64,000 nt of DNA from Egibacteraceae bacterium. Its GTDB lineage: Bacteria; Actinomycetota; Nitriliruptoria; Euzebyales; Egibacteraceae. The position numbers and the translations under genes are program-made. The stretch is taken from assembly GCA_030446745.1 (NCBI GenBank), contig JAUJMS010000010.1, positions 21,805 through 85,804 on the forward strand, read 5' to 3'. A model generated the notes under the pieces. That model had not been told where the DNA came from. It searched no databases and saw only the letters and a list, made by a program, of their open reading frames with translations. Of this stretch, positions 2,273-19,692 are shown one piece after another; the stretch's first letter is position 1; the number at the start of each line of letters is the position of its first letter.

Positions 2273-2582
2273 GGCTCGGCTGTCGGCGGCGCTGGAGTTG
2301 CAGCGCAAGCTCGAACTCATCATTGAGGGTGAGAAGCCCTTCGACATCTTCGTGCGCTGGAAGGAACTCCACGAGCAGCCGATGGGCTGGGAGCCAGACG
2401 TCAACGACGGGGTGCGGCTGAACGTTCGCCCCTTCGTCGAGGCGGGTGTGCTGCGAGCGCCGTTCAACATCCATTGGAAGAAGGACCGAGGCAAGAACCC
2501 TGACGGCACCGAGCGTGAGAACGACAAGCATCTCTCGCTCGCCGAGAAGCTCGACGCCAGGAAGCGGACCGGCCGCAAATGA
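2259..2582 (+). pseudogene. pglX: C-terminal segment of PglX split off by a frameshift
   Basis: The ORF track lists this as a separate 107-aa protein from a GTG inside the end of pglX. Its content (FDIFVRWKELHEQPMGWEPD, NDGVRLNVRPF, NDKHLSLAEK) is what normally forms the extreme C-terminus of PglX-type methylases. The last intact residues of the upstream frame (DWVERQRAGV) join naturally to VAGAEARLSAALELQRKLEL here. I read it as the same gene broken by a small indel near 2255-2260. It ends at 2582, overlapping the pglZ start by 4 bases (ATGA), the coupling expected between pglX and pglZ. Confidence 0.75.
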
Positions 2583-4886
2583 GCGAGACCGTCCTCGACC
2601 GGATTGTGGCGGTGCTGTCCGACGCTCTGGCATACAACGCCGGCGCCTACGAGGCGCCCATCGCACTGCTGTGGCCGGACGAGACCAAGCAGTGGCGGTC
2701 GGTCGTCGACCGCCGGGCCGAGCACCTGCCGGTGGTGTCGCTGGGCGACTACGACCCGGTGGCGCGGCGGGGGCCGGGGTACTGGGTCCGCTGTGTCGTG
2801 GCCGGCACCGTTGATGCTGGTCTGCCGGCGGGAACGCCGATCGTGTACCTGCCGGGCGTCGCTCGGCCTTGCGTGCCGTCGACAGCTGTCCGGCGGAGCT
2901 GGCGCCCATCGCCGAGCTCCAATACCGCAGCCAGTGGTTCTCCCATCCGAACAGCCGGGACTGGTCGGTCCGGGCGCTCCTCTCGCACACCGTCCGTGGC
3001 CTTGGCCTGCACGTCGTCGATGACGCAGAGACCGCCGCCGCCCTGCTGCTGGCGCTTGACCGGCTGCTCGACGAGCGCATCGACCGCCTGGCCAAGCAGG
3101 TGCTCGATGCCGACTACTTCCGTGATCTCGTCAATCCCGATCCTGTCCGCAGCCTGCTCGGGTGGCTCGATGATCCACACGGGTACCGACGCCGGTTCGA
3201 CGACGCCCAGTGGTCGGCGTTCGTCCAGCAATGCAAGGCGGACTACGGCTTCGACCCGAGGCGACGGCGAGGTGTCCGCCGCCCGCAAGCTCGGCGACCG
3301 CAAGGGGGCGTGGGCGCACGTTTGGAAGCGGTTCGCCGAGACGCCCGGAGCGCTACCCAGGCATCCTCAACCAGCTTCGCAAGGCACGCCCCGAGGAGCT
3401 CATCGTCGACAACCTCGACGTCTGGCCGCAGGACAACGAGATGGCCGAGGACCAGCTACGTAGCCGCCTGCGCGACTTCGAGGGGCTGACCGTCGAGGGT
3501 GCACGCAAGGAAGCGGCCCGCCTCGACAGCGAGCACGCCTGGCGCCGGCGCACGGTGTGGGCCGACCTCGACATGGCACCGCTCGCCTTCGCGCTCGAAC
3601 AGCTTGTGGCGCTCGCCGAGCTGACGGCCCGCCCGCTCGCGGGTGGCGATTTCGACACTCTGACGGCCGACTACGCCGATCGCGGATGGCGGACCGACGA
3701 CGCCGTGCTGCGTGCCCTCGCCGCCGCCAGGAGGACGGCGCCGACCGAGCAGCGGTGTCCGTAGCCGCTGCGGTGATGTACCGGCACTGGCTCGACACCG
3801 GCGCCAAGGCCCTCCAGCCGCCATTGGCCCCATAGCCAATGCCCACACCTACCAGCCCGGTTCGCCGGCGTCGGTAGCGCCCGGCACGGCCACGCTGTTC
3901 GTCGACGGCCTGCGTCTCGACATCGCTCACCGTATGCAGGAACGTCTGGCCGGAGTCGGCCTGGAGGTGGATGCCGCCACCAGCTTGGCGGCGCTGCCGA
4001 CCGTCACCCAGACCGCCAAGTCCGCCCTGGTCCCCACGGCCAAGGGCACGCTCGTCGCCGGCCCCGACCTTCACCCAAAGAACGTTGTGACCGGCACCAA
4101 GGCGTCGATCCAGGTGCTGCGGAGCCTGATGTCCGACATCGGCGTGCAGGTCCTCGGGCCGACCGAGACTGGGGATCCTTCGGGGGCGGCGTGGGCCGAG
4201 GCCGGTGAGATTGACCACCGGGGTCACGACGTTGGTGTCCGGCTCGTGGACTACCTCGACGAGGAGGTCGGCCGCATCGTCGGGCGCATCCGCGAGCTGC
4301 TGGACGCCGGCTGGCGACGGGTCGACGTCGTAACAGACCACGGGTGGGTGCTCTTGCCGGGCGGGATGGAGAAGGTCGAGCTTCCACCGGCGACGGCCGA
4401 GGTGAAGAAGGGTCGCTGTGCCCGCCTCAAGGATGGTGCCGTGGTGGAGACACCGACCGTCCCGTGGTTCTGGGACCGGACGTGCGCATCGCTGGCTCCG
4501 GGTGCCACCTGCTTCGAGGCGAACAAGGAGTACGAGCACGGGGGCGTGAGCCCCCAGGAGTGCATCGTTCCCCGCCTCACGGTGACCGCCGGCGTGGCCG
4601 CAGCGACGACGGGCGGACCGCAGATCACCAAGATGAAGTGGCTCGGACTCCAGTGCCGCATCGAGCTGGCCGGCGCACCGACAAGGTGCTCGCCGACATC
4701 CGTGGCCTTCCCGCCGAGCCGAAGTCGAGCATTGCCGACCAGGCGAAGGAGACATCGGGGTCGGGCAGGGTGTCGCTCCTGGTACCCGACGAGGATCACG
4801 AGGGCGAGCGCGCCCATCTGGTTCTCGTCGCAGACAACGGCCGCATCCTCGCCCAGCGCGAGGTTGTCGTCGGGAGGAACCGATGA
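2579..4886 (+). pseudogene. pglZ: BREX alkaline-phosphatase-superfamily protein PglZ, multiply frameshifted
   Basis: Joined across frames, about 769 codons give one PglZ-like protein, close to the usual size of PglZ (about 770-850 aa). The order is: MSETVLDRIVAVLSDAL from 2579; QYRSQWFSHPNSRDWSVRAL from about 2869; SAARKLGDRKGAWAHVWKRF near 3270; ERYPGILNQLRKARPEELIV from about 3345; AAAVMYRHWLDTGAKALQ near 3775; the phosphatase core with TLFVDGLRLDI and VVTDHGWVLLPGG from about 3840; and KVLADIRGLPAEPKSSI near 4690 to the stop at 4886. Each junction changes frame, at least six in all, so no full-length product is made. PglZ is an essential BREX component. Resemblance to the PglZ type B group is inferred from length and context. 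Confidence 0.8.
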
Positions 4887-6248
4887 CCGACCTCGACGAG
4901 CTCGACCAGCTCGCCGCCGAAGTGTTCGAGGGCTACCTGGTCCTGCAAGGACCTGGCCCAGCAGTTCCGGGGCCAATATCCGGTGCCCACCTACGTCGGG
5001 GAGTTCCTGCTCGGTCGGTACTGCGCCACCACCGACCCCGACGAGATCGCCGAGGGCCTCGCCGTCGTCGAGCGGTCGATGAAGGAGCGCACGGTGCGCG
5101 CCGGCGACGAGGAGCTGTTCAAGTCGCGAGCCAGGGAGAAGGGCAAGGTCAAAATCATCGACCTGCTGCGGGCCCGGCTCGACGCCAAGGCGGATGCCTA
5201 CAAGGCCGAGCTCCCCAGCCTGCAGCTCAACGACATCCACATCTCCGACCAGCTGGTCAACGAGCACGACCGGATGCTCACCGGAGGCTTCTACGCCGAA
5301 GTCACCCTCGAGTACATCGCCGCCCTCGCCCGGGAGTCGGGCGGGCAGCCGTTCCGGGTCGAGTCGGTGCGGCCCATTCAGATGTCGACCCGCGATGCGC
5401 TCGACACCTTCGTCCACGGGCGGAGGCGGTTCACGCTCGACCAGTGGCGCGACCTCCTGCTGCGCAGCGTGGGCTTCGAGCCGGCGCGGTTCAGCCGTCG
5501 AGAACAGGACGTGCTCATCGCTCGGATGGTCCCCTTCGTGGTCACCAACTACAACGCTGTCGAACTCGGCCCACGGGGCACCGGCAAGTCGCACCTGTTC
5601 CAGCAGGTGTCGCCCTACGCCCATCTGGTGTCGGGCGGCAAGGCGACGATCGCCAACATGTTCGTGAACAACCGGACGGGTCGGCGCGGCCTGGTCGCCC
5701 AGTACGACGTCATCTGCTTCGACGAGGTCTCGGGCGTCTCGTTCGACACCAAGGAAGGCGTCAACATCCTCAAGGGCTATATGGAGTCCGGCGAGTTCAG
5801 CCGGGGCAAGGAGAGCATCCGAGCCGACGGCGGCATCGTGATGGTCGGCAACTTCGACGTCGACGTCGTCGAGGAGCTACGTCGAGGCCATCTCTTCGGG
5901 CCGATGCCCAAGGAGATGCGAGACGACACGGCGTTCCACGACCGCATCCACGCCTACCTCCCGGGCTGGGACGTCCCGAAGCTCGACCCTTCGTACTTCA
6001 CCGCCCACTTCGGCCTTGTCAGCGACTTCCTGGCTGAGTGTTGGAGCCAGCTTCGTCGCAGCTCACGGCTCGACGTCATGCAGGGCCGGTTGGTCTGGGG
6101 CAGCCAGTTCAGCGGCCGTGACCGCAAGGCGGTGAACAACACGGTCAACGGCCTGCTGAAGCTGCTGTGGCCAGAGCCGGAGATGGACGTGCCCGACGAG
6201 GCGCTCGCCTGGGCGGCGGAGCTGGCCCCGAGCCCGCCGGCGGCGTAA
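4883..6248 (+). pseudogene. brxL: BREX Lon-like AAA+ protein BrxL, frameshifted near the N-terminus
   Basis: BrxL of the shorter (~450 aa) BREX family. The ATG at 4883 overlaps the pglZ stop (ATGA) and encodes MTDLDELDQLAAEVFEGYLV. Near 4945 the frame must change to give KDLAQQFRGQYPVPTYVGEF, after which one long frame runs to 6248 (the track gives 4983-6248). Seen in it are a P-loop GPRGTGKSH, a Walker-B-like VICFDEVSGV and the FHDRIHAYLPGWD region. Only one indel separates this from an intact gene, so a product from an internal start is possible. The combination with pglX and pglZ is the BREX-1 order (brxA-brxB-brxC-pglX-pglZ-brxL); brxA, B and C would lie upstream of the window. Confidence 0.8.
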
Positions 6249-14218: not shown

Positions 14219-14417
14219 GCCCCCAATGTAGGAGCGCGGTCGAGCGGGTGGCGTCCGTGGTTCACCCGGGCGCGGCGGCGAGGCCGCCGCAGGAACCGAC
14301 TGGATTCGTTCGTCGCGCGACGTCGACGCATAGGCGTGGGATCAACCATCGCTCGACGAGGCGGGTTTCCGCTCGGTACGCCGCGGGCAAGGTGGGCCCG
14401 GACGACAAGGAGATCGT

Positions 14418-15095
14418 ATGGTTTCGCAAGGGCTTCGTTACGCGGTCGACATCGCCTTCTGCATCGACGTGACCGGCAGCATGAGCCCGATCCTCGACAA
14501 GGTGAAGGAGAACGCGCTCCGCTTCTATGACGATGTTCAGCGCAACCTCACCGAGAAGTCAAAGAACGTGGACGAACTGCGGGTACGGGTCATCGGCTTC
14601 CGCGATTTCAAGCACGACGGGGCAGCGGCGATCGAAGAATCGTCCTTTTTCTCTCTTCCCGACGAGCAGGCGGCGTTTTCTGACTTCGTCGGCGGGCTGA
14701 CGCCGCAGGGCGGCGGCGACGCGCCCGAGTCGGGCCTGGAGGCGCTGGCGCTCGCCATCGCGTCCGACTGGACCACCGGCGGTGACCGCCGCCGCCAGGT
14801 GATCGTCGTGTGGACCGATCAGCCCGCGCAGCCGCTGGACGCCGCCGGTGCGCCCGCCCCGTACAGTGATCGCGTCCCGAAGGACTTCAGCGCGCTGACG
14901 GACCTGTGGGAGAACGAGCAAGGCGCGATGGGATCGAGTTCAAAGCGTCTGATCCTGTTCGCGCCGGACGGCCCGGGTTGGAGTGACATCTCCGGGGTCT
15001 GGGAGAACGTCGTCCACCACCCCTCGCAGGCGGGGCAGGGTCTGTCCGACGTCGACTACGGCACGATCATCGACTCGATCGCCAACTCGGTGTGA
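14418..15095 (+). CDS. TerY-like von Willebrand factor A domain protein
   Basis: First gene of a four-gene cassette. A 225-aa VWA domain begins almost at the N-terminus: IAFCIDVTGSMSPILDKV holds the MIDAS metal site (DxTxS form), followed by RVIGFRDFKHDG and VIVVWTDQPAQPL. Such stand-alone VWA proteins of the TerY type pair with a PP2C phosphatase and a kinase in the TerY-P triad, where the VWA protein is thought to act as a phosphorylated adaptor. A strong RBS (AAGGAG) precedes ATG 14418. The TGA overlaps the GTG of the phosphatase, so translation is coupled. Confidence 0.85.
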   Translation: MVSQGLRYAVDIAFCIDVTGSMSPILDKVKENALRFYDDVQRNLTEKSKNVDELRVRVIGFRDFKHDGAAAIEESSFFSLPDEQAAFSDFVGGLTPQGGGDAPESGLEALALAIASDWTTGGDRRRQVIVVWTDQPAQPLDAAGAPAPYSDRVPKDFSALTDLWENEQGAMGSSSKRLILFAPDGPGWSDISGVWENVVHHPSQAGQGLSDVDYGTIIDSIANSV

Positions 15096-16150
15096 CGGCT
15101 GGCGCCGGCACGCCTGACGCGTGCGCCGTGCCCACGGTCTCGTTCCGCTTCAACCTGGCCCAGATCGAGGGTCAGGGCGAGGACGCGGACCCGATTCTGC
15201 GCTTCGGTCCCAACCTGGGACTCGTTGGCGCGCTGGACGGGATGGGCGGTGCCGGCGGCACGGTCTACGAGACCCCCGACGGGCCCCGCACCGGCGCGTA
15301 CATCGCGTCGCGCGTCGCCCGCGACGTCGTCGAGCAGCGCATGATCGAGTTGTTCGAGCCGGAGTGGCAGCTTGACGGTCCAGCCACGGCCGTCGAGTTG
15401 CACCGCGCGCTCGTGGACGGGCTCACGGCCCGACTCGCGGACTTGAAAGCTCCGCCCACCGCCTTGCGCTCGAAGCTCGTTCGAGCGCTGCCGACCACCT
15501 TGGCCCTGGTCGCCCTCCAGCGCGCCGAACCTGCGGCCGCCGCGTGGTTGGCGCACGTCTTCTGGGCGGGCGATTCCCGTGCCTTCGTCGTGGAGCCACG
15601 AGATGGCGTGCGCCAGCTCACGACCGACGACATCCGCTCAGGCGGCGACGCGCTGCACAACCTCAGAGACGACTCGCCCATGGACAACACCATCTCGGCG
15701 GACACCGAGTTCCGCCTGAACTACCGACAAGTCGACCTGTCGGCGCCGTATCTCATGGTCGCCGCAACCGATGGGTGCTTCCACTACGTGCGCTCGCCTA
15801 TGCACTTCGAGCATCTGCTCTTGTCGACCTTGCAAGACGCCCGCGACACGGAGTCCTGGCGCATCGGCGTGCAGAGGGAGGTGGGCGTGGTCACCGGCGA
15901 CGACGCGGCGCTGGCACTGCTGGGTGTCGGAGCCGATTTCGGCGGCTTCAAGGAGATGTTCGCCGACCGCGCCGACCAGGTGCGCCGCCGCTTCATCCAG
16001 CCGCTGGACGAGCTCGACGGAGAGGTCGCGCACGCAGAACAACGGCTCGAGCAGCTCCGCGAGCGACGCGACGCGCTGTTACACGAGCTATGGGGCGCCT
16101 ACAAGCCCGAGTACGAGCGCTACCAGACCGTGAAGGAGAGCCAATCATGA
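15092..16150 (+). CDS. PP2C-type protein phosphatase of the TerY-P-like cassette
   Basis: A 352-aa metal-dependent Ser/Thr phosphatase. PP2C metal motifs are visible: VGALDGMGGAGG near residue 50, HVFWAGDSRAFVV near 155, VAATDGCFHY near 235, and the last aspartates in VTGDDAALALLG near 275. The final ~70 residues (ELDGEVAHAEQRLEQLRERR) are a predicted coiled coil that could bind the kinase or VWA partner. It likely removes phosphates placed by the next gene's kinase. GTG start at 15092 overlaps the previous stop (GTGA), and its stop overlaps the kinase start (ATGA). Confidence 0.85.
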   Translation: MTAGAGTPDACAVPTVSFRFNLAQIEGQGEDADPILRFGPNLGLVGALDGMGGAGGTVYETPDGPRTGAYIASRVARDVVEQRMIELFEPEWQLDGPATAVELHRALVDGLTARLADLKAPPTALRSKLVRALPTTLALVALQRAEPAAAAWLAHVFWAGDSRAFVVEPRDGVRQLTTDDIRSGGDALHNLRDDSPMDNTISADTEFRLNYRQVDLSAPYLMVAATDGCFHYVRSPMHFEHLLLSTLQDARDTESWRIGVQREVGVVTGDDAALALLGVGADFGGFKEMFADRADQVRRRFIQPLDELDGEVAHAEQRLEQLRERRDALLHELWGAYKPEYERYQTVKESQS

Positions 16151-17217
16151 GGGCCGGTGACGTCGTCGGCGGCTACACCATCCTCGAGGACTTCAAGGTC
16201 GTGGGCGCAGGTCTGTCCAAGTGGACCTTCGCCGAGCGCGACGGGCGTGAGTACTTCATCAAGGAGTTCCTCAGCCCGACCTACCCCGACGACGACGCGC
16301 CCGGTAGCGCCAAGACCAAGGCCCGCAAGCGAGCGCGTTGCGCCGCGTTCGAGGCGCACCACCGCGGGATCCAAGAGGCGCTGGCTCCGGTGTCGGGCTT
16401 CGGTGGAAACCTCATCGTCACCCTCGACTTCTTCCGCTGCGGAGCCAAGTACTACAAGGTCACCGAGAAGGTCGATGTCGCCAGTCTGGAGCCCTCCGGA
16501 GATCGCCGAACTCGAATTCTCGAGCCAACTGGTTCTGCTCAAGACGGTGGCGCACACAGCCTCAAGATTCTCCACGACCTTTCGATCGTGCACAGCGACC
16601 TCAAGCCGTCCAATGTGCTGATCAAGCGCACCGAGTTCGGTCACACGACCAAGCTCATCGACTTCGACAGCGCATATCGAGTCGGATCGCCGCCACCGCC
16701 CGACGAGATCGTCGGAACCATGAACTACTACTCGCCGGAGCTCGTGGCGTACATTCAGGAGACTGGGCCACCCGACCGCCTCACGCAGAAGTCCGACATC
16801 TTCGCGCTGGGCCTTATCTATGTCGAGCTGTTGACCGGTTCGCTGCCGCCCTTTGACTACGAGCGCTACCGCTATCCGAGCGTCGCCGTGACGGCGGGTG
16901 AAACGCTGCGTCTACCGACCGGCACGCTGCCGGCGGACGTCAGCGAGCACGTCGATCGGATGATGCTCGTCGACCCGGTCGCCCGCCCCTCGGTCGGCGA
17001 CGTCCACGCGACCTTGATGCGGGTGCGACCGCCTCTTCCCGCCCCTCCCCGCGCGGGCCGCCGCGAGCGAGCGGCGGCGGCGTCAACCACGCTCAAGGGC
17101 AAGGGGCTGCGGGCCGTCGGTCGAGTCGCGGAAGCGGTGCCGCCGCCTCCGGACACCCCGTCGGGCCGCTTGATCGGCAAGCTGCTGACGCGACTGAAAG
17201 ACACCGAGACGCGATGA
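16147..17217 (+). CDS. Atypical Ser/Thr protein kinase of the TerY-P-like cassette
   Basis: A 356-aa kinase with changed catalytic motifs: YFIKEFLSP lysine, LSIVHSDLKPSNVLIKR (HSD instead of HRD), KLIDFDSAYRVG (DFD instead of DFG), and GTMNYYSPELVAY as activation segment. After the kinase domain is a basic linker (GRRERAAAASTTLKGKG) and a helical tail. Between about 16490 and 16560 the main frame reads poorly, whereas a neighbouring frame gives SPPEIAELEFSSQLVLLKTV, the expected helix before SLKILHDL. One extra base near 16490 and two near 16557 would explain this, so roughly 25 residues may be scrambled. Kinase function may still hold, since key motifs lie outside. Confidence 0.8.
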   Translation: MRAGDVVGGYTILEDFKVVGAGLSKWTFAERDGREYFIKEFLSPTYPDDDAPGSAKTKARKRARCAAFEAHHRGIQEALAPVSGFGGNLIVTLDFFRCGAKYYKVTEKVDVASLEPSGDRRTRILEPTGSAQDGGAHSLKILHDLSIVHSDLKPSNVLIKRTEFGHTTKLIDFDSAYRVGSPPPPDEIVGTMNYYSPELVAYIQETGPPDRLTQKSDIFALGLIYVELLTGSLPPFDYERYRYPSVAVTAGETLRLPTGTLPADVSEHVDRMMLVDPVARPSVGDVHATLMRVRPPLPAPPRAGRRERAAAASTTLKGKGLRAVGRVAEAVPPPPDTPSGRLIGKLLTRLKDTETR

Positions 17218-17516
17218 GCGCCCACTGGCGGTGTGCCGTCTGCGAGGGCGTCAACGACGGAGGCCGTACCTGCACCACGTGCGGCGCCGCCCGCACGCGC
17301 AGGGAGTGGGCGGAAACTGCTGTCCTCGAGCGTATCGACCGGCGTCGACCACTTCCCCCGCCACCGGCGCCGCCGCCGCTCCCGTTCGAAGATCCCGACC
17401 GTGCACCGCTCGAGGATGGACCCTTCGTCAACCCACGGGACTTCGGCCCGCGCTTCCTCGTCATCCCGACGCCGGTGGGTTGCATCTACATCGGACGCGG
17501 CCCGCGCGTGCGTTGA
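17214..17516 (+). CDS. RanBP2-type zinc-finger protein, fourth gene of the cassette
   Basis: A 100-aa protein whose ATG overlaps the kinase stop (ATGA). Residues 5-23 form a RanBP2-like zinc finger (WRCAVCEGVN, then CTTCG), matching W-x-C-x2-C-x3-N-xn-C-x2-C. A proline-rich linker (PLPPPPAPPPLP) follows, then a short C-terminal part DFGPRFLVIPTPVGCIYIG. I do not recognise the full protein. Tight coupling makes it a likely functional partner of the VWA-phosphatase-kinase set, perhaps a substrate or nucleic-acid/protein adaptor; that is inference. Confidence 0.7.
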   Translation: MSAHWRCAVCEGVNDGGRTCTTCGAARTRREWAETAVLERIDRRRPLPPPPAPPPLPFEDPDRAPLEDGPFVNPRDFGPRFLVIPTPVGCIYIGRGPRVR

Positions 17517-18352: not shown

Positions 18353-18445
18353 GGTTCTCCAGTGTAGCGCATGATGGTCTGGCACGGTCGAACTTGCGCG
18401 CGGGCAGACTACGCCCGCCGGCGGCCAAGACCGCGGAGGCGGCGA
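18314..18445. repeat. Left copy of a ~120-bp direct repeat flanking the RES toxin-antitoxin pair
   Basis: The stretch runs gcggtccccagccac ... ctcctgcgcttccatggtt ... gtgtagcgcatgatgg ... tacgcccgccggcgg ... gaccgcggaggc. It contains the first ~13 codons of the excisionase-like gene and its upstream region. The same string recurs at 19711-19835 in the same orientation, with roughly 85% identity by eye. Confidence 0.85.
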
Positions 18446-18529
18446 CGGGCAGACCGACGCCGGCGACGGCGGTGTCCTGTCGGTCCGGCTACAGTGGTAG
18501 CAAGACACATCGGACGCTTGGAGTCCTCT

Positions 18530-18985
18530 ATGGCGGCGCTCGAGACGATTCAGGCGCGGGTCGTCGAGCCGGTACTCGACCACGCCGCTTTGGAAAACGC
18601 GCGTCTGGTCAACCACGCCAGGGCCCAGCTGCTCACGTCGGGCACCGCCGTCACGGTTGAGGCGATCGCTGCCGCGCGCGGCAAGAACGCGGACACGGTG
18701 CGTCGGTGGGCGGCCCGCCAACGACGTCTCGGCAGGCTCGTGACGGTCACCCATGACGGGCAGGCCCTCATCCCGAGCGTGCAGCTGGATGAGGCGCTCG
18801 ACGTTGATGAGGCAGTGGCGACCCTGGTGCGGCGTTGCGTCGCACACGGTATGGACGGATGGGCGGTATGGCACTGGTTCGAGGCGCCCAATACCTGGCT
18901 CGACGGCGACGTGCCGGCGCGGCGCCTTCGCGCCGGTGATATCGATGCGGTGCGCCATGCGCTGAGCGGCATGTTCCAGGAGTGA
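18530..18985 (+). CDS. MbcA/ParS/Xre-type antitoxin (DUF2384)
   Basis: A 151-aa protein starting at ATG 18530 behind GGAG. The N-terminal half has a DNA-binding-like helix pair (VEAIAAARGKNADTVRRWAA). The C-terminal part GWAVWHWFEAPNTWLDGDVP with ARRLRAGDIDAVRHAL is the MbcA/ParS toxin-binding motif, which normally blocks the active site of RES toxins. The stop overlaps the toxin GTG (GTGA). A TACAGT hexamer about 40 bp upstream could be a -10 box. Confidence 0.75.
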   Translation: MAALETIQARVVEPVLDHAALENARLVNHARAQLLTSGTAVTVEAIAAARGKNADTVRRWAARQRRLGRLVTVTHDGQALIPSVQLDEALDVDEAVATLVRRCVAHGMDGWAVWHWFEAPNTWLDGDVPARRLRAGDIDAVRHALSGMFQE

Positions 18986-19692
18986 CCGCTGCTGCGCCAT
19001 GCGGCAGCGCCGTCTGCCCCGTACCGCGCGCGCCGCCCCATGCCGGTCTGCGCACGGTCGTCTGGCACGCCGGCACCACGCTGCACCGCGGGTACAAACG
19101 CGCACACCCGGATGCGACAGAACTGGCGCCCGGTCTCGGCGACACCCGGTTCGCGCCTCAGGGAGGATGCAGCCACGTCTACGTGGCGACCACCAGCTTC
19201 GCGGCGCTGCTCGAGTCGGCGCTGCACGACGCAGCGCCACCCGCACCCCAGATCCCGCGGGCGCTGCTTTCCCTATGGTCTGAAGCCCACGTGGCGCTCC
19301 GCGAATCGGTGCGCCTCATTGACCTGCGTGACGCCGAGCTCGAGCGGCTAGGCCTCACGAGGTCCGCTCTGGTGTCGACGACGGCCGCGCACTATCCATG
19401 CACACGCGCCTGGGCCGCGCAGCTGGTGGGCCGCGCGATCGGAGGCCAGCGGACGCACGGATTGGTGTGGCACTCGCGTCAGGCGGAGCTGCACGCCCAG
19501 GCGATGACTCACCGACCGGCAGTGGCGGACCTGTTGGATCATCACCCGGCGGAGGTCGCGATCCTGTGGTCACCGCCAGCTGCGCCGGACCTTCTCGCCG
19601 CCGCCGCCGGAGGGTTGGGGGCGCTCGACGCCGGTCCCGGTCGGGACTATGTCGCTGACCTCACTGCCCTCCTCGGCATCATCACGATGTGA
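18982..19692 (+). CDS. RES-domain toxin (NAD+-degrading ADP-ribosyl-transferase fold)
   Basis: A 236-aa protein with RES signatures in order: TTLHRGYKRAHPDATELAP, GDTRFAPQGG, HVYVATTSFAALLESALHD (conserved Glu) and HGLVWHSRQAELHA (conserved Ser). RES toxins deplete NAD+ by phosphorolysis or hydrolysis and are kept in check by the antitoxin encoded just upstream. The frame is intact, so the pair may be active. It is larger than minimal RES toxins (about 150-180 aa). It is flanked by a direct repeat, which suggests it was inserted into the promoter region of the pilus locus. Confidence 0.8.
   Translation: MTAAAPCGSAVCPVPRAPPHAGLRTVVWHAGTTLHRGYKRAHPDATELAPGLGDTRFAPQGGCSHVYVATTSFAALLESALHDAAPPAPQIPRALLSLWSEAHVALRESVRLIDLRDAELERLGLTRSALVSTTAAHYPCTRAWAAQLVGRAIGGQRTHGLVWHSRQAELHAQAMTHRPAVADLLDHHPAEVAILWSPPAAPDLLAAAAGGLGALDAGPGRDYVADLTALLGIITM

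Follow-up and report, generated by a model that had tools for sequence, protein, structure and literature searches.

Three kinds of described system come close to the locus studied here. In Sulfolobus, the RanBP2-type zinc finger of ArnA alone suffices to bind the vWA protein ArnB, as seen in a cocrystal (PMC12852372), the ArnA-ArnB complex is tuned by the kinase ArnC and the phosphatase PP2A (PMC12852372, PMC6509490), and the whole module governs motility according to nutrient state (PMC12852372). The TerY-P triad comprises a VWA protein, a PP2C phosphatase and a kinase fused to a zinc ribbon or OB-fold (PMC11090510); TerY-P modules protect against phage when cloned (PMC10889362), a protection also reported by Gao et al., as cited in PMC11090510. 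Actinobacterial kinase-PP2C-vWA genes accompany GAP1-N2 GTPase systems (PMC7159879), and in both the TerY-P and the GAP1-N2 triad descriptions the zinc module forms one polypeptide with the kinase (PMC11090510, PMC7159879). Here, we analyse a cassette of four genes in a stretch of 64,000 nucleotides from an Egibacteraceae bacterium (contig JAUJMS010000010.1), hereafter the window, where genes for a VWA protein, a PP2C-family phosphatase and a Ser/Thr kinase are followed by a fourth gene for a small protein with a RanBP2-type zinc finger (the finger gene). We find that the finger gene accompanies this VWA-PP2C-kinase family almost constantly and is not a peculiarity of the window cassette.

The finger gene beside VWA-PP2C-kinase triads

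A scan of one genome per species yielded 80 VWA loci, which span Actinomycetota, Chloroflexota, Bacteroidota, Bacillota, Pseudomonadota and one Thermoplasmata archaeon. The genome collection yielded 66 complete triads, and a finger open reading frame (ORF) lies within 1.5 kb in 49 of these 66 by the strict motif, in 52 by the motif without its aromatic residue and in 57 if any ribbon of four cysteines (C4) is accepted. Within 1.5 kb of triads (438 kb of sequence) the strict motif was counted 72 times, versus not once in the remaining 468 kb (Fisher p 3e-22, with kilobases as units and relatedness ignored). The same association is seen among the closest homologues: (i), within 151 genomes (the window's own and 150 relatives), three other close VWA homologues were found and the finger gene follows the kinase in each; (ii), in the window's clade of the VWA tree (100/100 support), 13 of the 14 loci carry the finger gene, and the contig of the fourteenth, L046, ends inside PP2C; (iii), the finger gene is kept across two gene orders, PP2C-kinase-VWA-ZnF (23 loci) and VWA-PP2C-kinase-ZnF (16 loci). 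VWA loci that lack a complete PP2C-kinase pair have no finger gene in 10 cases out of 10, most of them Cytophagales and hence not independent; three further incomplete loci, L068, L098 and L101, do carry it.

An earlier note on this DNA, made from its letters alone, had thought the fourth gene non-standard and had proposed to look for it beside triads in other genomes. There it was found: the gene is recurrent, being present at 52 of the 66 complete triads and in all 13 testable cassettes of the window's clade, and absence from homologous cassettes of close relatives did not occur. A Herpetosiphon plasmid, obtained as a BLAST match, carries an annotated VWA-PP2C-kinase set with no annotation directly behind it; right after the kinase Haur_5140 (L037 8110-8358, Herpetosiphon aurantiacus pHAU01) lies an unannotated ORF of 78-82 residues with a finger and a transmembrane helix.

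The domain was also followed away from the triads. Scanning the window's genome and 297 phylum genomes with PF00641 gave weak matches everywhere. The best 30 matches, once read, include many with the strict motif, mostly within or ending longer unrelated ORFs, and none has triad genes in its short (about 3 kb) locus. As PF00641 matches sit elsewhere too, it is not the RanBP2-type domain itself that is specific to triads but only the triad-adjacent gene. Weak matches to the finger protein in relatives (expectation value, E, 1e-3 to 1e-2) were discarded as chance unless they lay beside a triad. On a Calothrix plasmid (L148 7992-13336) we observed a cyanobacterial version in which no separate finger gene is present, composed of a VWA gene, a long-tailed kinase and a protein of 1045 residues that begins with PP2C.

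Cassette layout and the finger proteins

ORF reading places the four genes on the + strand, with the following features.

14219..14417, + strand: upstream intergenic region, bordered by the VWA gene and by a cation-efflux gene that runs divergently; AAGGAGA precedes the first ATG (sequence reading); likely the promoter side of the cassette
14418..15095, + strand: VWA protein of 225 residues at the cassette start, with a MIDAS-like DVTGS (Pfam VWA_4, E 1.2e-8); identity 91, 80 and 80% in G016, G091 and G015
15092..16150, + strand: PP2C-family phosphatase of 352 residues with a GTG start, DGMGG, GDSR, TDG and GDDA motifs (direct sequence reading) and a charged C-terminal tail (Pfam PP2C_2, E 1.4e-6)
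16147..17217, + strand: Ser/Thr protein kinase of 356 residues (Pfam Pkinase, E 3.4e-22), with a low-complexity tail containing LKGKGL and RLIGKLL motifs
16495..16560, + strand: frame-shifted kinase stretch, with one plus two extra bases compared to relatives (nucleotide and protein alignment with G016, G091 and L043)
17214..17516, + strand: fourth gene, 100 residues, with an N-terminal RanBP2-type C4 finger, a short helix, a Pro-rich linker and a C-terminal beta-hairpin (family alignments, AlphaFold2 model, family profile against the PDB)
17226..17285, + strand: zinc finger of the fourth protein, W-R-C-A-V-C through C-T-T-C-G, with W5, C7, C10, N14, C20 and C23 invariant in 14 homologues

The coordinates and all three junctions agree with the linkage by 4-base overlaps described in the earlier note, each overlap being exactly 4 bases long (GTGA at 15092-15095, ATGA at 16147-16150 and ATGA at 17214-17217). 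The HSD and DFD motifs that it had read in the kinase are likewise present, with the added correction that about 21 residues of this protein are scrambled (see below).

The window finger protein reads HWRCAVCEGVNDGGRTCTTCGAAR, with the pattern W-x-C-x2-C-x3-N-x5/6-C-x2-C, and its N-terminus HWRCAVCEGVNDGGRTCTTCG holds the tryptophan, the four cysteines and the asparagine of the RanBP2 type. It conforms to the RanBP2-type pattern W-x-C-x2-4-C-x3-N-x6-C-x2-C, the spacing from the asparagine to the third cysteine being five in the window and six in most relatives. Searched singly against Pfam the protein matches no family at 0.1, a PF00641 search of the window's genome found nothing, and the window's own finger by itself has no PF00641 match; the same model matches 10 of 15 fingers from homologous cassettes, and a family profile of 15 fingers run against the PDB retrieved RanBP2/Nup358 (E 1.4e-13), Nup153, NPL4 and ArnA (5a8i, E 2.1e-4). 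By its motif, its family profile and its relatives, the separate and translationally coupled RanBP2-type finger protein noticed earlier is thus real and conserved. Ubiquitin-type binding was set aside because the Thr-Phe pair of ubiquitin-binding fingers is found in none of 73 fingers; the residue after the second cysteine, at the same place as this pair, is D or E in 62 of the 73.

Most finger proteins are predicted to consist of the finger, then a proline-rich linker, then one transmembrane helix. A strongly hydrophobic segment of 19 residues typical of such a helix is present in 37 of 56 finger proteins, and the finger is predicted to be cytoplasmic because the finger side bears more positive charge in 30 of these 37. 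Some of the helix-bearing proteins stop at the helix, and those of Streptomyces and relatives extend about 120 residues outside. In the AlphaFold2 model of a Nonomuraea finger protein, the finger is followed by a transmembrane helix (69-92) and an outer beta-domain (about 117-212), with a predicted local distance difference test (pLDDT) score mostly above 90; the closest folds to this outer domain in a Foldseek search of the PDB are the MliC/PliC lysozyme inhibitors, at E 0.14 to 0.3, which is not significant. The window protein and the majority of its closest relatives, which have no such helix, retain the proline-rich linker and a PxPxGC-type C-terminal segment, which AlphaFold2 models as a beta-hairpin in the window protein, and in L040, L041, L044 and G091 the equivalent place continues into a helix. 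A Foldseek search with the window finger protein returned nothing significant, and the VWA profile had no match in the PDB.

The arrangement of the fingers varies between loci. Two finger proteins are encoded at L058, L070, L071 and L116, and the finger is located at the C-terminus of other proteins in Succinivibrionaceae and Lachnospiraceae. Several genes for zinc-ribbon proteins adjoin the Bacillota triads, and one of these proteins has an N-terminus that looks FHA-like by eye. Several tandem small genes ending in a finger lie behind the kinase in the Succinivibrionaceae loci L068, L074 and L075, whose branch otherwise consists mainly of gut Bacillota, a placement in the tree that suggests transfer.

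The kinase tails hold a feature of their own. A short motif, approximately [RST]-L-[RK]-G-[KST]-L/G-L, occurs 20 times in the tails of kinases from Chloroflexota and the window's branch, versus 0.4 expected from shuffles, an enrichment inflated because the pattern was written after viewing the same sequences; the motif recurs toward the end of the Band7-like protein adjoining Streptomyces triads. RLRG[KST]LL-like motifs were seen in the kinase tails of L038-L058 and L071, at the C-termini of genes of 350-500 residues in L077-L105 and at L071 4650-5978, and were absent from the kinase domains, VWA proteins and finger proteins compared. Mycelial actinobacterial loci (L081 846-4005, L100 808-4001 and L091 3-3630) have two extra genes upstream of PP2C, one of about 735 residues that matches nSTAND3 weakly (E 0.003 to 0.008) and contains HEAT-like repeats, the other of about 350 residues and Band7/SPFH-like by eye.

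A putative membrane-side switch and its alternatives

The gene content, the coupling, the conserved pairing of finger and triad and the predicted topology are the observed ground for a reading on which we are evenly divided, namely that the cassette is a reversible phosphorylation switch with the finger protein as its membrane-side adaptor or receptor. The kinase and PP2C would work oppositely on common targets, the VWA protein would serve as a scaffold, and the finger, in the cytoplasm, would dock onto the VWA protein or the kinase. The other end of the finger protein would anchor the complex at the membrane, by the transmembrane helix in most relatives and perhaps by the C-terminal hairpin segment in the window version. 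A signal at or beyond the membrane would then alter docking and hence phosphorylation. More tentatively, and with more doubt than confidence, we suggest that RanBP2-type fingers are a common docking tag by which receptors with differing outer domains all plug into one VWA-PP2C-kinase switch. A shared docking module would be expected to appear twice in some loci and to be joined to the C-terminus of other proteins elsewhere, as is observed. Such a tag could parallel the ArnA finger on archaeal ArnB, with the two-finger and finger-relocated loci as combinatorial variants, an analogy that we hold with the same reserve.

Several observations weigh against the switch reading. The finger is absent from the Bacteroidota triads (L051, L052 and L061) and from a few others, so that not every triad depends on it. 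As a test of topology, positive-inside counts are weak. The window finger protein lacks a transmembrane helix, as do most of its nearest relatives, so that for the window protein itself we only infer membrane contact. Finally, the finger-binding surface of ArnB lies in its beta-sandwich and C-terminal domains (PMC12852372), which the VWA protein of 225 residues does not have.

Four other explanations have to be weighed. The cassette could be a regulator unconnected with conflict, serving envelope stress, development or metal stress in a manner akin to Sulfolobus Arn and its setting of motility by nutrient state (PMC12852372). The Streptomyces finger proteins, membrane-anchored and with an outer domain weakly resembling the periplasmic lysozyme inhibitors MliC/PliC (the E-value is not significant), are consistent with this. 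We nevertheless consider it unlikely, as a very patchy distribution and phylum-mixing branches in the VWA tree fit an accessory system better than a core regulator.

A second explanation concerns this copy only. The BREX genes PglX, PglZ and BrxL lie upstream of the cassette; BrxL ends at 6248, that is 8.2 kb away and not 6 kb as first estimated. Compared to G016, G091 and L043, the window kinase has insertions of 1 nt and 2 nt about 60 nt apart, and the frame is regained after the approximately 21 scrambled residues, which fall between 'SLEP' and 'AHSLKILHD'. A PglZ fragment scan ruled out that frame breaks are confined to the kinase: the PglZ of the BREX set (window 2579-5082) gives profile matches spread over three reading frames and is thus broken or mis-assembled. 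Since both genes carry frame breaks, the window copy may be damaged or mis-assembled. The two frame-shifting kinase indels and the state of PglZ would fit a non-functional copy in a decaying island near a broken BREX, which seems to us rather doubtful given that all four frames are open, the catalytic motifs are retained and the kinase indels total three bases; moreover, the presence of more than one indel on the same contig is accounted for equally well by uncorrected draft-assembly errors. The frame breaks may stem either from assembly error or from decay.

Anti-phage defence of the TerY-P type, to which the earlier note had linked the cassette, would have the kinase switch fire on infection, with the finger protein as effector or infection sensor. 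It keeps some probability because cloned TerY-P triads protect against phage (PMC10889362). The cassette is also rare (3 of 397 phylum genomes; close homologues in three of the 150 relatives) and has a GC content of about 64-69% against about 75% in its flanks, which fits acquisition, as in an acquired island. The presence of BREX 8 kb upstream, the nSTAND-like neighbour of the Streptomyces versions and a triad beside an integrase on a faecal contig argue in the same direction. However, several housekeeping or unrelated genes stand between BREX and the cassette, namely those for an acyl-CoA dehydrogenase, a cyclase-like protein (both by eye), a DUF3072 protein and a cation transporter, some on the other strand, and the cassette is not part of a BREX operon. 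Ten genes scanned on either side of the cassette in close relatives are ordinary ones, for metabolism, for repair or of unknown kind (including thioesterase, DEAD helicase, CDP-alcohol transferase and luciferase-like genes), with no BREX among them. PADLOC has no model matching the VWA, PP2C or finger protein, scans of viral contigs with PP2C and VWA found no relatives, and neither an enzymatic nor a pore domain is present in the finger protein. A role in phage defence thus draws no support from the context, from PADLOC or from the relatives' flanks, and we regard it as quite unlikely.

The ARR-type basic run, a trait of RNA-binding fingers, was not seen in the family alignments, the acidic D/E after the second cysteine argues in the same sense, and attachment to a membrane helix would be unusual for a nucleic-acid sensor, which makes it very unlikely that the finger binds nucleic acid and that the cassette senses foreign or damaged DNA or RNA. 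In favour of this idea, the CoCoNuT paper argues for nucleic-acid sensing by the kinase-fused zinc ribbon or OB-fold of TerY-P (PMC11090510), and single-stranded RNA is bound by some RanBP2 fingers (work cited in PMC6509490).

The reading that we favour is that of a phosphorylation switch with the finger protein at its membrane side. VWA-PP2C-kinase triads are known in defence and stress contexts, and the finger gene is a candidate for the part by which they receive a signal or are anchored; it spans several phyla, and an archaeal crystal structure can serve as a guide to it, making its role testable.

Two side observations follow. A likely toxin-antitoxin pair (window 18371-19692) begins some 0.9 kb past the downstream end of the cassette: the first gene encodes a C-terminus of the Xre/MbcA/ParS antitoxin type, and a RES-domain gene comes next. 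The faecal contig (MT836186, 'Bacteriophage sp.', human faeces, 12 kb) carries a PP2C-kinase-VWA triad at L149 1-2780 together with integrase-like and Xre-type genes (by eye), and is more likely to be a mobile element than a phage.

Comparison with the GAP1-N2, TerY-P and Arn systems

The GAP1-N2 triads resemble the cassette in that a kinase is linked to PP2C and to a stand-alone vWA gene in Actinobacteria, and differ from it in that finger and transmembrane helix are here in a separate gene. GAP1 or DO-GTPase genes were not noticed in the loci read, for which no profile search was made. RanBP2 is unmentioned in the main text of the two papers describing the GAP1-N2 and TerY-P triads (PMC7159879, PMC11090510), a statement that does not cover the founding 2012 description of TerY-P.

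With TerY-P, the cassette shares the three protein types, encoded by adjacent and co-directional genes for VWA, PP2C and a Ser/Thr kinase, and a zinc-binding module linked to the kinase. However, this module is here a separate RanBP2-type protein, usually membrane-anchored, and is not fused to the kinase: the window kinase has no C-terminal zinc ribbon or OB-fold but a low-complexity tail with LRGKGL-type motifs. The window VWA protein has no PADLOC or NCBIfam match, though the library may hold no TerY models, and tblastn against 72,556 plasmids (E 1e-3) retrieved VWA genes of Herpetosiphon, Calothrix, Rhizobium and Microvirga but no ter-operon plasmid. Of the TerY-P label proposed in the earlier note, the triad is thus borne out and the membership is not established. 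TerY-P may be taken as the nearest named kind, fair as an analogy rather than as an assigned membership.

As for Arn, Pfam detected no FHA domain in the window finger protein and no extra domain in the VWA protein of 225 residues, which has a VWA match only. ArnA has an FHA domain in place of the transmembrane helix, ArnB has extra domains, and the phosphatase is PP2A there and PP2C here. Yet both systems bring together a RanBP2-type finger protein, a vWA protein, a Hanks-type kinase and a phosphatase, and by this analogy ArnA-ArnB appears to be the nearest precedent for the pairing of finger and VWA proteins.

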